Source of the DNA: Anaeromyxobacter dehalogenans 2CP-1
GTDB taxonomy: Bacteria; Myxococcota; Myxococcia; Myxococcales; Anaeromyxobacteraceae
Assembly: GCF_000022145.1 (NCBI RefSeq)
Contig: NC_011891.1
Coordinates: 4,446,501 to 4,510,500 of the forward strand
DNA: 64,000 nucleotides
Direction: 5' to 3'
Part shown: positions 2,877 through 44,535 of the stretch, piece after piece
How the letters are laid out: each line of letters opens with the position of its first letter
How positions within the stretch are numbered: the stretch's first letter is position 1
Position numbers and translations under genes: made by a program
Notes under the pieces: generated by a model
What the model saw: the letters and a program-made list of their open reading frames with translations, nothing else
Database searches by the model: none
What the model was told of the DNA's origin: nothing

Positions 2877-3556
2877 GCGGCGCCCCCCGGCGGCACCACC
2901 AGCCGGTAGCCCACCCCGCGCACCGACTCGATGCGCACGCCCGGCGCGCCGAGCCGCTCGAGCTTGGTGCGGAGGTAGCCGACGTACACGTCCACCACGT
3001 TCGAGTTGCCCTCGAACTCCTGGCCCCACACCGTCTCGATGAGGCGGGTGCGCGAGAGCACCTCGCCGGCGTGGCGGGCCAGCTCGGCCACGAGGCCGTA
3101 CTCGCGGGCGGTGAGCGTCTCGGACTGCGCGCCCACGATCAGCGCCCGCCGGCGGGCGTCGAGCGTCACCGGCCCGAGCGCCGAGACGTCGGTGGCGCCG
3201 CCGCGGCGGTGCAGCGCCTCGATGCGGGCGATGAGCTCGTCGAAGTCGAACGGCTTCACCAGGTAGTCGTCGGCTCCGGCGCGCAGCCCGGTGACCTTCT
3301 CGCCGGTCGAGCCGCGGGCGGTGAGCAGCAGCACCGGCGTGCGCAGGCCCCGCGACCGCCACTCGCGCAGCACCGAGATGCCGTCGAGGTCGGGCAGCGA
3401 CCAGTCGAGCAGCACCACGTCGTAGGCGATGGTGGTCGCCTGCTCGCGGGCCGCGAGGCCCGTGCCGCAGACGTCCACCTGGTGGCCTTCCTCGGCCAGG
3501 CCGCGCGCCAGCACGCGCGCGACCCGGTCCTCATCCTCGACCAGCAAGAGCTTCAT
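2873..3556 (-). CDS. OmpR/PhoB-family response regulator (CusR/CzcR-like)
   Basis: A 227-residue two-domain regulator. The receiver domain starts MKLLLVEDEDRVARVLARGL with the acidic pair, has the phosphorylation aspartate in VVLLDWSLPDLDG and the conserved lysine in VKPFDFDEL. The C-terminal winged helix (about 125-222) includes LTAREYGLVAELARH and the recognition-helix region VVDVYVGYLRTKLE, ending SVRGVGYRL. Its ATG at 3556 lies 26 bp inside the end of the RND pump gene and its stop overlaps the kinase start, so translation is probably coupled. Probable role: transcriptional activation of this efflux operon in response to metal. Confidence 0.95.
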
Positions 3557-6500
3557 GCGCGGGCTCCGGGGCTGGTGCCGATGATCCCTCGGCCCGGCGC
3601 GCGAGCCAAGGATAGAGCGCCGGGAGCACGAGGAGCGTGAGGATGGTGGAGGTGACGAGGCCGAACGCGACCACCGTGGCGAGCGGGCGCTGCACCTCGG
3701 CGCCGACCCCGGTCGCGATGGCCATGGGGATGAAGCCCAGCGCGGCCACGAGCGCCGTCATCAGCACCGGCCGGGCGCGCTCGCGGGCCGCGGTGGCGGC
3801 CGCCTCGGCCGGCGAGCGCCCCTCGGCCTCGAGCGCCACCAGCCGGTTCATCAGCACCACGCCGTTCAGCACCGCCACGCCGGAGAGCGCGATGAACCCC
3901 ACCGCCGCGGAGATCGACACCGGCATGCCGCGGGCCCAGAGCGCGATCATCCCGCCCACCGAGGCGAACGGGACGTTCATGAAGATGACGAGCGCCGGCT
4001 TGAGCTTCCGGAACGCGGCGAGCAGCACGCCCACGATGAGCACCAGCACCACCGGGATGACCACGCCGAGCCGCCGCTTCGCCTCGTTCAGCGTCTCGAA
4101 CGAGCCGCCCCACTCGATGCGGTAGCCGGCCGGCGGGCGCACCTGCGCCGCCACCGCGCGCTCGGCCGCGCCCACCACGCCGCCCAGGTCGGAGCTGCGC
4201 ACGTTGAAGCCGACCACCAGCCGGCGCTCCGCGTCCTGGCGCGAGACCAGGCTCGGCGCCACCTCGCTCGACACGTCCGCCACGCGCGAGAGCGGCACCA
4301 GCGCGCCGCCCGGCGCGGGCAGGCCCAGCGACGGGAGCGTGAACGCGCTCGCCCCGTCGCCCAGGCGCAGCACGATGGGGATGCGGAGCGGGCCGTCGTA
4401 GGTGGCGCCCACCTCGACGCCGGTGCGGACCGCCGTGACCGCGTCGAGCACGTCGCGCACCGTGAAGCCCGCCGCCGAGACGTCGAGCGGCCGCGGCCGG
4501 ACCTCGAGCAGCGACACCGCCGGCGGTGCGTAGATGCGCACGTCCTCGGCGCCCTTCACCTGCTCCACCACGCCCGTCACCTGCTCGGCGAGCGCGCGGA
4601 GGTCGGCGAGGTCCTCGCCGTAGACCGAGATGGTCACGTCGGCCACCGAGCCGCCCAGCAGCTCGTTGAAGCGCATCTGGATGGGCTGGGTGAAGGCCGG
4701 GTCACCGCCCGGCGCCTCGCGCCCGATCGCGAGCTCCACCTCGCGGATGAGCTGGTCGCGGGTGAGGCCCCTCCGCCACTCCGAGCGCGGCTTCAGCGTC
4801 ACGAACACGTCCGCCTGCTCGAGCCCCATGATGTCGGTCGCGACCGCCGGGCTGCCCACGCGCGAGACGATGCGCGTCGCCTCCGGCACTTGCGAGAGCA
4901 CCGCGGCCTCCATGCGCCCCGCCTCGCGCACCGCCGACTCGAGCGAGATGTCCGCCGCGCGGGTGGTCTGGATGACGAGGTCGCCCTCGTCGAGCTGCGG
5001 CACGAACTCCGAGCCCGCCGTCAGGAACAGCGCCACGCCCAGCGTGAGCAGCGTCACCGCCCCCGCCGCCACCGCCTTCGGGCGCGCCAGCGTGCGGTCG
5101 AGGAGCGGCAGGTAGAGCCGGTCGAGGAGGCGCACCAGCGGCGGCGGGCGGGCCGGGATGTCCTTCGGGCGGAGCAAGAGCGCCGCCGCGGCAGGGATGA
5201 ACGTGACCGAGAGGACGAGCGAGGTGAGGAGCGCGAACACCACCGTCAGCGCCATCGGGCGGAACATCTTCCCGTCCACCCCGGTGAGCGACAGCACCGG
5301 CACGTAGACGAGCAGGATGATGAGCACCGAGAAGAACACCGGCGTCGCCATCGAGCGCGTCACCTCGCGCACGTGCGCCGCCATCTTCTCGCGCCCGCCG
5401 CGCCGGTCGGCCGACGCGAAGGTCGCCGCGGCCACGCCGTGGAAGATCGCCTCCACCATCACCACCGCGCCGTCCACCACCAGGCCGAAGTCGATGGCGC
5501 CCAGGCTCATCAGGTTGCCCGGGATGCCCAGCAGCACCATGGCGCCCGTCGCGCCCAGCATCGAGAGCGGGATGGCCGAGGCCACCAGCAGGCCCGCGCG
5601 GAACGAGCCCAGCATGAGGAACAGCACCGCCACCACCAGCAGGCCGCCCTCCAGCAGGTTCTTGAAGACCGTGCGGAGCGTGCCCTCGACCAGCTTGGAG
5701 CGGTCGTAGACGATGTCCACGGTGACGTCGTCCGGGAGCGCCGTGCGCACCTTCGCCATCGCGTCGTGGACGCGGTCCATCACCTCGAGCGCGTTGTCGC
5801 CGCGGAGCATCTGCGCCATGAGGTAGACCGTCTCGCCGTGGCCGTTCTTGGTGGCGGCGCCGATGCGCGGCATCGCGCCCACGCGGATGTCCGCCACCTC
5901 GGCGAGCCGCACCGGCGGGAGGTTGCCGCCCTGCGGGTGGACGAGCGCATGCGCGAGGTCGGTCGGGTCCTTCGGGAGCGCCACCGCGCGGAGCAGCGAC
6001 TGCGCCGAGCCCGCCGGCACGCTCGCGCCCGCCGCGGTGCCCGTCGCCTGTTCCAGCGCGCCGCGCAGGTCGGCGAGCGTGAGCCCGCGCTGCGCCATCC
6101 GCACCGGATCCGCGCGGACCTCGAGCGTGCGCTGCTCGCCGCCCCAGGTGTTCACCTCCACCACGCCCGGCACGCTGCGGAGCAAGGGCGACACGCGCAG
6201 CGTCGCCATCTCCAGCAGCTCCGCCGGCGTGCGGCGGTTGGAGGAGATGGTGAAGTGGAAGATCTCGCCCAGGCCGCCCGTCACCGGGCCCAGCTCAGGC
6301 GCCGAGACGCCGTTCGGCAGCGCCACCGTGTCGAGCCGCTCCTTCACCACCTGGCGGGCGCGGTAGGTGTCGGCGCCGTCGTCGAAGACCGCCGTGACCG
6401 AGGAGATGCCGTAGCGCGAGAGGCTGCGCTGCTCCACCATGCCCGGCACGCCGCCCAGCGCCGCCTCGATGGGCCGGGTGACGAGCTTCTCCACCTCCTC

Positions 6501-41849: not shown

Positions 41850-42066
41850 CCGGCCGGCGTTCACGGTGGGTGACCGTCCGTCCCGCGGACGCCCTGCCGG
41901 CGGTGTGGGTCCAATGCGCAGCGTTCGCGCGCGGCCCCGCGAGCCACCCACCGCGCCCCTGGTTTCCCGGTGGTTCGCGACGCACCCGCGGGGATCATGT
42001 GACTGACATCCGCGGCGGCGTGTCTTACTCGTGTTGGCGCTGGGCCACTGGACCCGAGGTGCATCG

Positions 42067-42711
42067 GTGAACGTCCCCCTCACGCAGCGCTTCATCTCCG
42101 CCGTGGCGAAGGCGCACGAGCTTCACGCGAGCCAGGAGCGGCCCGGCTCGGGCGCGCCGTACCTCACGCACCTGCTGGGCGCGGCGGCGAACGTGCTGCA
42201 CTTCGGGGGCGACGAGGACCAGGCCATCGCCGCGCTGCTGCACGGCGTGGCCGCCGACGGCGACGCGCGGGCGACGCTCGAGACGATCCGCGAGGCGTTC
42301 GGCGCCCGCGTGGCGGACCTGGTGGCGGGCTGCCGCGACGCGTTCGACAGCGCCGAGCCGGCCTGGCGCGCGCGCAAGGAGGCCTACCTCGCGCGCCTCG
42401 CCACCACGCCGCGCGACGTGCTGCTGGTGGCGGCGGCCGACAAGCTCGACGACGCGCGCGCCATCGTCACCGACCTGCGCACGCGCGGTTCGCAGGCCTG
42501 GTCGCACCTGCCCGGCGGCCGCAGCGGCTCGCTCTGGTACTACACCGCGCTCGCGGCCACCCTGGCGCGCGCCGGCGTCGGCAGCATCGCGGTCGCGCTC
42601 GAGGCCACGCTCGACGAGATGGCGAACGCGGCGGTCGACTGCGAGGTGGACGACCGCGTCGCGCTCGCCGAGCAGTTCGGCTGCCTGGCGCTGTCGGCCG
42701 TGCAGGCCTGA
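42067..42711 (+). CDS. HD-domain-like protein lacking the catalytic HD aspartate
   Basis: 214 residues from GTG at 42067 (GAGGTG ahead). It has the RelA/SpoT-type HD layout: FISAVAKAHELHASQ, YLTHLLGAA with its His at 35, and AIAALLHGVAADGDARATLE where the family normally has LLHD..ED. Here the H is kept (59) but the D is replaced by G60. TTPRDVLLVAAADKLDDARAI supplies the later Asp region. The metal site is therefore incomplete, suggesting a non-catalytic or altered protein. Confidence 0.8.
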   Translation: MNVPLTQRFISAVAKAHELHASQERPGSGAPYLTHLLGAAANVLHFGGDEDQAIAALLHGVAADGDARATLETIREAFGARVADLVAGCRDAFDSAEPAWRARKEAYLARLATTPRDVLLVAAADKLDDARAIVTDLRTRGSQAWSHLPGGRSGSLWYYTALAATLARAGVGSIAVALEATLDEMANAAVDCEVDDRVALAEQFGCLALSAVQA

Positions 42712-42850
42712 GGGCGCGGCCGCTCGCCCTTCGACGAGCCGCCCGGCGCGCCGGCGCGGATACCCCCGTATCGCCGCGGCGAGGACGACCGCGCGCCGGC
42801 ATCTACCGCTCCGCCCGCCGGATCGCCCGGCGGCATCGCGGAGGCCGGCC

Positions 42851-43327
42851 ATGGCGGACGTCGTCTATCGCCCGGAGATCCACATCGAGCGCCTCCCGGG
42901 CTCGGTGCGGAAGGCCCATCTGCCCGCCGAGCAGGCGCCGGTGATCTTCGGGACGCACGGCGCGGTCGCGGAGCACTACGGGCGCGCACCAGGCACGTAC
43001 GAGCCGCACGCGACCACGCTCGACTACGTGATCGCGGCGGCCGGTGGTTGACTGCTGGGGACCTTCGGAGGCGCGCTGGAGGCGCGCCACATTCCCGCGA
43101 CCGACGACCGGCTGACCGTGACCGTCACCGGAGAGGTGGAGCTGGAGGGCAAGGTGCTCGTGATCCGGCGCATCCACGCGCGGCTGGAGCTGCGCGCGAC
43201 GCCGGAGCACGCGGCGACGGCGCAGCGGGTGCACGGCTTCTATCACGAGGCCTGTCCGGTCTACCGGAGCCTCTCCCCGGCCATCGCCATCACCTCGGAG
43301 CTGGTGCTGCTGCCCGAGACGGCGTGA
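42851..43327 (+). CDS. OsmC-family peroxidase with in-frame TGA (selenocysteine candidate)
   Basis: An OsmC-like protein of 158 residues if TGA at 43049-43051 is read through. Both halves are in the same frame: ...LDYVIAAAGG, TGA, LLGTFGGALEAR.... The TGA (codon 67) sits exactly where OsmC proteins carry their first redox cysteine (AAxxC-L-x-G), and the second cysteine is present at residue 135 in HEACPVYRSL. A hairpin at 43070-43088 fits the bacterial SECIS rules. Start ATG at 42851 with GGAGG 6 bp ahead. OsmC-like selenoproteins are known in other bacteria. A simple nonsense mutation is the alternative. Expected role: hydroperoxide reduction. Confidence 0.85.
43070..43088 (+). promoter_or_regulatory. 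Putative bacterial SECIS element
   Basis: GGCGCGC, loop TGGAG, GCGCGCC: a perfect 7-bp stem with a 5-base loop that has G at its second position. The loop starts 25 bases after the TGA, inside the window (about 16-37) expected for bacterial SECIS elements that recruit SelB. GC-rich genomes give chance stems, so the support comes from position plus the protein context. Confidence 0.65.
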
Positions 43328-43759
43328 AGCACGGCGGGCGCCCGCGCCGCCCCGCGCGCACCCGGCATTGACTTTCCGCGCAATCTGGGGCAATGTTCCT
43401 GTTCGTTCGATGACGTTTGGCCCGATTCCATCAAGACGAGGCGAGGGCGGCGGCCCTGAGACCCTCGGCCAGCTCCCGGTCGGCATCGACCGGGGTTGTG
43501 GCAATGCCGCCTGCGATGGAGGACCCATGACGACCCCCGAGAAGACGACGTAATCGCAGGGCCCTGGCGCGTCCGCGGGGTGGCTCCGGCCGCCCGGTGA
43601 CCCGCCGCGCCCGCCGTCGCCCCTCGCGGGCGAGCGGCCGGACGTGTCCGCCCGCCGGGTAGGCTGATCCTGCCCGGCGGCCCACGCGATCAATCCAAAC
43701 CTATCCGCCCGCATCGCGGGCGGCGCGGGACCCATTGCGTCCCGGGAAAGGAGCGAACC
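43328..43759. other. Non-coding stretch with promoter-like box and two stem-loops
   Basis: About 430 bp without a convincing gene. A -35-like TTGACT lies at 43368-43373; a weak CAATGT is 17 bp further. Two consecutive hairpins follow: CGAGGG/CCCTCG at 43442-43467 and a perfect CCCGGTCG-GCAT-CGACCGGG at 43475-43494. A short 8-codon frame begins ATGACGACCCCC at 43525. It could be a structured leader or small RNA; no known riboswitch family is recognised. The rest up to the next gene is featureless GC-rich sequence. Confidence 0.4.
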
Positions 43760-43924
43760 ATGCAGCCCTACACGCTGGGCGTCGCCGGCCTGCTCGCGAT
43801 GGCCTGCGACTGCATCCGCCGCGGCGACCTCGACGGCGCCGCGGCCGCCATCGCGCGCGCCCGCGCGCTCCACCGTCCGGCGCGCGCAACGCGGCGCGGC
43901 GCCGAGGAAGCGGGGACTCGATGA
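43760..43924 (+). CDS. Small 54-residue protein coupled to the TPR-like gene
   Basis: ATG at 43760 with AAAGGAG six bases ahead, a strong ribosome-binding site. The product starts MQPYTLGVAGLLAMACDC and becomes Ala/Arg-rich and helical. Its TGA overlaps the ATG of the next gene (ATGA), indicating translational coupling. No family recognised. Confidence 0.65.
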   Translation: MQPYTLGVAGLLAMACDCIRRGDLDGAAAAIARARALHRPARATRRGAEEAGTR

Positions 43925-44535
43925 CCGCGAAGGAGACGACGAACCGGATCCTGGGCGAGCTGCGCCGCGCCTACCAGCTGGCGGAGGAGCAGCGCGCGCC
44001 GGAGGCGCTCGAGATCTACCGCGGCCTGATCGCCGAGGCGCGCCAGGCGGGCCTCGACTCGGCGCACCTGCACTGGGCCTGCGCGGTGGCGGCCGACTAC
44101 ACGGGGGAGCTGGAGATGGCGTTCGAGCAGATCACCACCGCGATCGCGAAGGACCCGCTGGCGCCGCCGTTCCGCCACTCCTTCGACCTCATCAGCCGCC
44201 ACCTCCGCGCGGCGCTCGCCGACCCGGAGCGCGACGCGGACGATCCGTCCACGCCGCGCCTCTACGCGCTGCTGCAGCGCTCGGACGAGGCGGACGTGGG
44301 GGCGCACCTCGCCATGGCGCGCTTCCACCTGGCGAAGGGCCACGCGGCGGAGGCGCGGGCGATGCTCGACGCGGTGACCTTGCTCCACCCCGCGGCGCGC
44401 GAGGCGTGGGAGCTGCTGGGCCGCGTGGCCCGCGAGGCGGGCGACGCCGCGACCGCGGAGCGGGCGCGCCTCGAGGCGTCCGCGCTCGGCGACGGCGAGC
44501 TGCCGTTCGCGATCCCGGGGCCGGCGTCGGCGTGA
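43921..44535 (+). CDS. TPR-like repeat protein, hypothetical
   Basis: 204 residues. The sequence is built of helical hairpins resembling tetratricopeptide repeats: LAEEQRAPEALEIYRGLIAEA, LHWACAVAADYTGELEMAFE, VGAHLAMARFHLAKGHAAEA and EAWELLGRVAREAGDAATAE. Probably a protein-interaction scaffold in the cytoplasm. The start at 43921 is fixed by the overlap with the 54-residue gene. Confidence 0.75.
   Translation: MTAKETTNRILGELRRAYQLAEEQRAPEALEIYRGLIAEARQAGLDSAHLHWACAVAADYTGELEMAFEQITTAIAKDPLAPPFRHSFDLISRHLRAALADPERDADDPSTPRLYALLQRSDEADVGAHLAMARFHLAKGHAAEARAMLDAVTLLHPAAREAWELLGRVAREAGDAATAERARLEASALGDGELPFAIPGPASA

Follow-up and report, generated by a model that had tools for sequence, protein, structure and literature searches.

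A predicted selenoprotein of the OsmC superfamily in Anaeromyxobacter dehalogenans and its relatives in other bacterial phyla

We identified a gene of Anaeromyxobacter dehalogenans that almost certainly encodes a 158-residue selenoprotein of the OsmC superfamily, in which UGA67 would be read as selenocysteine (Sec) by means of a hairpin located downstream of it. Judging from sequence, Sec67 is supported by the conservation of the UGA, by Sec/Cys exchange at this codon, by a hairpin under selection, by a complete Sec machinery, and by the OsmC fold.

The gene is found in a 64-kb window (the whole stretch of DNA analysed here) of a genome that consists of a single contig of 5,029,329 bases (Table 1). 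It starts with ATG, and its sole interruption is the TGA at codon 67, after which no frameshift occurs, so the reading frame bears out the original prediction on this point. The read-through protein matches the Pfam family OsmC (PF02566) with an E-value of 1.3e-12; its 48.4 bits exceed the gathering score of 27.5. When both strands of the window were scanned for composition, TGA67 was the sole TGA joining two coding-like stretches in frame. The gene stands alone between those of an HD_4 protein (42031-42711) and a TPR protein (43735-44535), and its closest named homologues in the scan of species genomes belong to Anaeromyxobacter.

Table 1 Features of the candidate selenoprotein gene and of related loci (window coordinates unless a locus is named)
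Feature	Coordinates	Strand	Basis or remark
OsmC-family gene, predicted selenoprotein	42851..43327	+	158 aa with Sec67; frame read from sequence, Pfam, homologues, AlphaFold
Probable ribosome-binding site GGAGG	42840..42844	+	6 nt before ATG, from sequence
TGA codon 67, predicted selenocysteine at peroxidatic position	43049..43051	+	TGA in relatives, Cys in distant homologues, alignment with catalytic Cys of solved OsmC proteins
Putative bacterial SECIS hairpin	43070..43088	+	bSECIS criteria, -14.5 kcal/mol, synonymous constraint, covariation
Cys135 codon (TGT), predicted resolving cysteine	43253..43255	+	invariant in alignments; aligns with second Cys of OsmC proteins
Terminal stop TGA of the OsmC gene	43325..43327	+	reading frame
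DUF3179 genes flanking the OsmC gene	L141:1751-2824, 3550-4641; L144:1792-2865, 3484-4596		

The interrupting codon is shared by the relatives of this gene. Among 60 related genomes, its own included, all full-length matches (14/14) displayed TGA at the aligned codon and exactly one internal TGA each, and the sequence on both sides of it is strongly conserved in the 14 full-length relatives of the order. In a phylum sample of 195 genomes searched with the family profile, TGA was present in every full-length match, and of the matches only two, both partial, lacked it. The partial matches L020, which runs to the contig end, and L021 were put aside; in the latter, which comes from one family member, an OsmC C-terminal remnant (L021:1419-1721) is joined to unrelated sequence, perhaps as the result of a deletion or of joining in the assembly. 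When 84,980 species genomes were scanned, 313 stretches encoding relatives were obtained. The best 80 of these 313 all (80/80) had TGA at the position of codon 67; they come from Myxococcota, Acidobacteriota, Chloroflexota, Gemmatimonadota, Desulfobacterota, Poribacteria, and Actinomycetota. TGA at the redox site occurs in about a hundred genomes of at least seven bacterial phyla. The homologues can be aligned over their full length, with a mean column identity of 66% over the whole alignment. The subfamily displays the motif U-[LM]-x-G-T-[FLY]-G-G-A-L-E-A-R or a close variant, a Cys135 that is invariant in the alignments used, and invariant residues of its own (R14, R20, H36, Y43, T56, and D58). 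Its distribution is patchy, since five genomes of the same genus possess the Sec machinery and go without the OsmC gene, which indicates that the gene is not essential. No relative of it was found in the viral contigs or in the plasmids searched.

Two extra samples, of 396 genomes around an actinobacterial carrier and of 400 genomes around a chloroflexotal carrier, gave mostly TGA forms plus a few stop-free matches. The stop-free homologues carry TGC or TGT at the Sec codon, for example SVAGCLIGTFGGALKARG (L214 and L216; L213 with one change), and the same holds for the Cys forms L215, L217-L219, and L221. The exchange partner of UGA67 is therefore, on the evidence of these codons, cysteine. 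The alignment of homologues, which had been proposed as a check, thus showed codon 67 to be either TGA or Cys, with conserved sequence flanking it. One homologue, L220, has lost the redox motif. Another, the remote L222 (L222:1001-1372), displays TGG at the Sec codon and aligns poorly in its N-terminal part; either decay of this copy or an error in the assembly may account for it. TGA was also observed at the same site in distant OsmC clades, namely L225-L230 and L232 from Chloroflexota and L223 and L224 from genomes of the Actinomycetota sample. The motifs of these clades read GUMYGTLA.AL or UMMGTLA, with a SECIS stem that is compensated in several of them, and the distant putative Sec clade of Chloroflexota (L225-L232) displays GUMYGTLAGALSGRK.

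The fold of the protein was modelled by AlphaFold from an alignment of 57 sequences, with a mean pLDDT of 94.8. OsmC-family structures came out on top both in Foldseek (E 4.5e-08 to 1lql) and in VIA-align (Z 14.7 to 2onf and 14.2 to 1ml8), and the predicted fold is that of OsmC/YhfA. Among the nearest folds are those of YhfA-type proteins and of other OsmC-like proteins that are uncharacterised. A search of the PDB with the single sequence returned no match and one with the profile returned weak OsmC/Ohr matches; it was the fold searches that settled the family. When the profile is aligned with OsmC proteins of solved structure, residue 67 lines up with the first redox Cys and Cys135, encoded by TGT, with the second, exactly as had been claimed for this gene. 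In OsmC/Ohr chemistry, the peroxidatic role belongs to the first Cys and the resolving role to the second.

These assignments allow a mechanism to be proposed. SelB with Sec-tRNA(Sec) would bind the hairpin just 3' of UGA67, and the ribosome would put selenocysteine in at this codon, yet stop at the ordinary UGA that is found 92 codons on. In the mature protein, Sec67 could act as a peroxidatic selenol that attacks a hydroperoxide or another oxidised substrate, Cys135 could resolve the selenenic acid as a selenenylsulfide, and a cellular thiol partner would then reduce the Se-S bond. A selenol/thiol peroxidase or reductase is the likely mechanism of this protein, by analogy with its superfamily. 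Peroxidase activity as such, suggested by homology at about 8-18% identity, is a moderately probable assignment.

The genome was searched family by family for Sec-related genes, the presence of which had been named as a check, and selA, selB, selD, and tRNA-Sec were all found. The tRNA-Sec has the anticodon UCA and scores 76.7 bits, selA (357 bits, or 509 with a neighbouring match) and selB (293.5 bits) are over their cut-offs, and selD scores 380.9 bits. The selD gene (3923608-3924534 of the genome; L065:1501-2427) is itself a selenoprotein gene, with an in-frame TGA that reads ...AGUACK... and falls at the Sec site of selenophosphate synthetases. Among carrier genomes across phyla, selA was over the cut-off in 23/27, and the other four are draft assemblies with partial or weak matches.

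The hairpin consists of a 7-bp stem formed by GGCGCGC (43070-43076) and GCGCGCC (43082-43088), which enclose the loop UGGAG (43077-43081). Bacterial SECIS (bSECIS) elements are described as having a loop of 3-9 nt with a G in the first two positions, an upper stem of 4-16 bp, a spacing of 16-37 nt, and an MFE of at most -7.5 (PMC13188914). With its 5-nt loop UGGAG, 7 bp, 25 nt, and MFE of -14.5 kcal/mol, the hairpin falls within all of these limits. The perfect 7-bp stem with a TGGAG loop in the bSECIS range was thus correctly predicted; the distance given for the hairpin, 25 bases after the TGA, holds for the loop and not for the stem, which begins after 18 nt. Stability is unremarkable for GC-rich DNA (z = -0.42 for the 55-nt region), and for this reason it was dropped as evidence for a SECIS, and synonymous-site and covariation tests were used instead.

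The synonymous-site test covered 84 sequences and took its expectation from the codon use of the same genes; because these homologues are kin by descent, its printed tail probabilities overstate their independence and are not to be read literally. Within the stem, Ala75 is encoded by GCG in 83/84 sequences and Ala78 by GCG in 81/84, against 30.5 expected in each case (about 38%). Likewise, Gly74 is GGC or GGT in 84/84 (56.4 expected) and Arg79 is CGC or CGT in 80/84 (39.1 expected), a codon pattern that is not shared by the controls outside the stem (Gly70, Gly73, and Ala83). Paired states account for 97.2% of the pair cells over 42 sequences, with a covariation score unmatched by any shuffle or slid register. 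In five members of the Chloroflexota Sec clade, pair 27-35 is changed from G-C to C-G with the stem kept in place; in the Cys forms the stem is broken. The hairpin is held by selection, and the bSECIS check that had been called for thus gave both agreement with the published constraints and synonymous-site selection on the stem. As a separate observation, codon 66 before the UGA is GGT or GGC in 79/83 homologues, and at codon 73 these codons are avoided (23/83 against 55.6 expected). The bias at both codons suggests that the RNA is under additional constraint near the UGA and beneath the stem.

A frame interrupted by a stop could also belong to a decaying OsmC pseudogene, in which TGA67 is either a genuine stop or an error of sequencing, and both the several genomes of the same genus without the gene and the C-terminal remnant in one family member would fit such decay. 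We consider this very improbable, for it is already refuted by the conservation of the TGA and of the sequence flanking it: the same codon is TGA in dozens of independent assemblies from at least seven phyla that retain a high column identity, relatives keep the frame intact, and selection acts on synonymous codons. A second possibility is that UGA67 is decoded as some other residue, either by a code change to Trp or Gly or by programmed readthrough with a near-cognate tRNA. The TGG of the remote homologue L222 points in this direction, as does the codon after the UGA, which begins with C in 68/84 sequences, a known leaky-stop context. However, the OsmC gene itself ends with TGA, and hence TGA is not reassigned genome-wide. 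Further homologues carry Cys, neither Trp nor Gly, at the site, the genome possesses all of the Sec machinery and, in selD, another gene with a UGA, and the bSECIS-type hairpin is kept in the UGA forms and broken in the Cys forms. Decoding as another residue is therefore about as improbable as the pseudogene.

Even less probable, in our estimation, is the synthesis of two products, of which the N-terminal one would be a peptide of 66 residues and the C-terminal one a protein made by reinitiation. The GGAGG shortly past the TGA (43067-43071) could resemble an internal ribosome-binding site, but a conserved start codon is absent after it. Both halves are needed for the OsmC redox site, the structural model is one domain across the junction, and the Cys homologues read straight through. 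Insertion of selenocysteine at UGA67 was supported by every in-silico check that the original prediction had named, and none of the three findings that it had listed as refuting (no sel genes, unrelated residues at the site, or TGC instead of TGA) was made.

No conserved gene order was detected over the 80 loci, in which the commonest neighbour family occurs in 6/80. In six acidobacterial loci (L118, L115, L146, L083, L086, and L124), the OsmC gene is directly downstream of an AhpC/TSA-DsbD_N gene (L118:1864-2949 in L118), with a gap of 15-60 nt in five of them and of about 600 nt in L124. The active site of this neighbour reads DW-U-P-F/Y-C with TGA, so the two genes appear to form a pair of selenoprotein genes. 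Meanwhile, in L141 and L144, which belong to the hot-spring bacteria HRbin10 and HRbin08, the OsmC gene has a DUF3179 gene on either side, each with TGA at U-P-x-C, which makes three consecutive selenoprotein candidates. Prx-like UxxC proteins and DUF3179 are known selenoprotein families (PMC13188914), and the OsmC gene therefore sits in clusters of selenoprotein genes at these loci. Overall, it is found beside other selenoprotein genes in eight acidobacterial loci.

With these findings, a genus in which selenoproteins were already known gains another that is well supported: a 2006 survey reported 11 selenoproteins from A. dehalogenans, none of which is OsmC (PMC1794560). Standard gene finding would miss or truncate the gene. 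None of the NCBIfam models covers the 40 members of the subfamily that were tested, and for this reason public annotation probably truncates or misses its genes. A natural test of how a SECIS hairpin originates and decays within a coding sequence is offered by the Cys forms together with the second putative Sec clade, and the value of Sec over Cys could be measured directly in a small soluble OsmC protein. We give about even weight to the broader proposal that this is a distinct and widespread OsmC subfamily, largely missing from annotation models, in which Sec is the norm and not just an occasional substitute for Cys, and which forms a selenium-dependent redox module with neighbouring selenoproteins.

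OsmC-like selenoproteins are indeed known elsewhere, as had been stated at the outset. They were first listed from the Sargasso Sea with three sequences (PMC1088965) and later as COG1765 with the motif UxxT from the Sargasso Sea and GOS sets (PMC9312934, PMC13188914). The protein described here shares with them the OsmC domain, the predicted Sec at the redox site, and a bSECIS 3' of the UGA. Compared by listed motif alone, the two differ: in place of UxxT, the family of the window has U-[LM]-x-G-T, where +3 is Gly and +4 is Thr. The Sargasso set was reported from marine data, whereas the genomes that carry the present family come from soil, sediment, groundwater, hot springs, and in some cases the sea.

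Pfam OsmC is matched by 40/40 members tested, and the Ohr model TIGR03561 gives a weak match to 1/40 (best E 0.023), which does not place the family in Ohr. The NCBIfam model NF041052 (OsmC_like_Se, "OsmC-related (seleno)protein") is likewise of the OsmC superfamily, and its name foresees Sec or Cys forms. As the family of the present protein it was rejected, at 18.7 bits against a curated cut-off of 95; its best matches in the phylum are below the cut-off, bear Cys, and differ in motif from our family. The OsmC/Ohr/YhfA peroxiredoxins of solved structure (2onf, 1ml8, 1lql, 1ukk, and the Ohr entries) have the same fold as our model, with Z up to 14.7, and have two redox positions in common, the second of which is Cys-Pro in several. 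The protein of A. dehalogenans differs from them in its identity of about 8-18%, in the predicted Sec for the first Cys, and in its own set of invariant residues. Based on these comparisons, it probably represents a new subfamily of OsmC-like selenoproteins, an already known kind.
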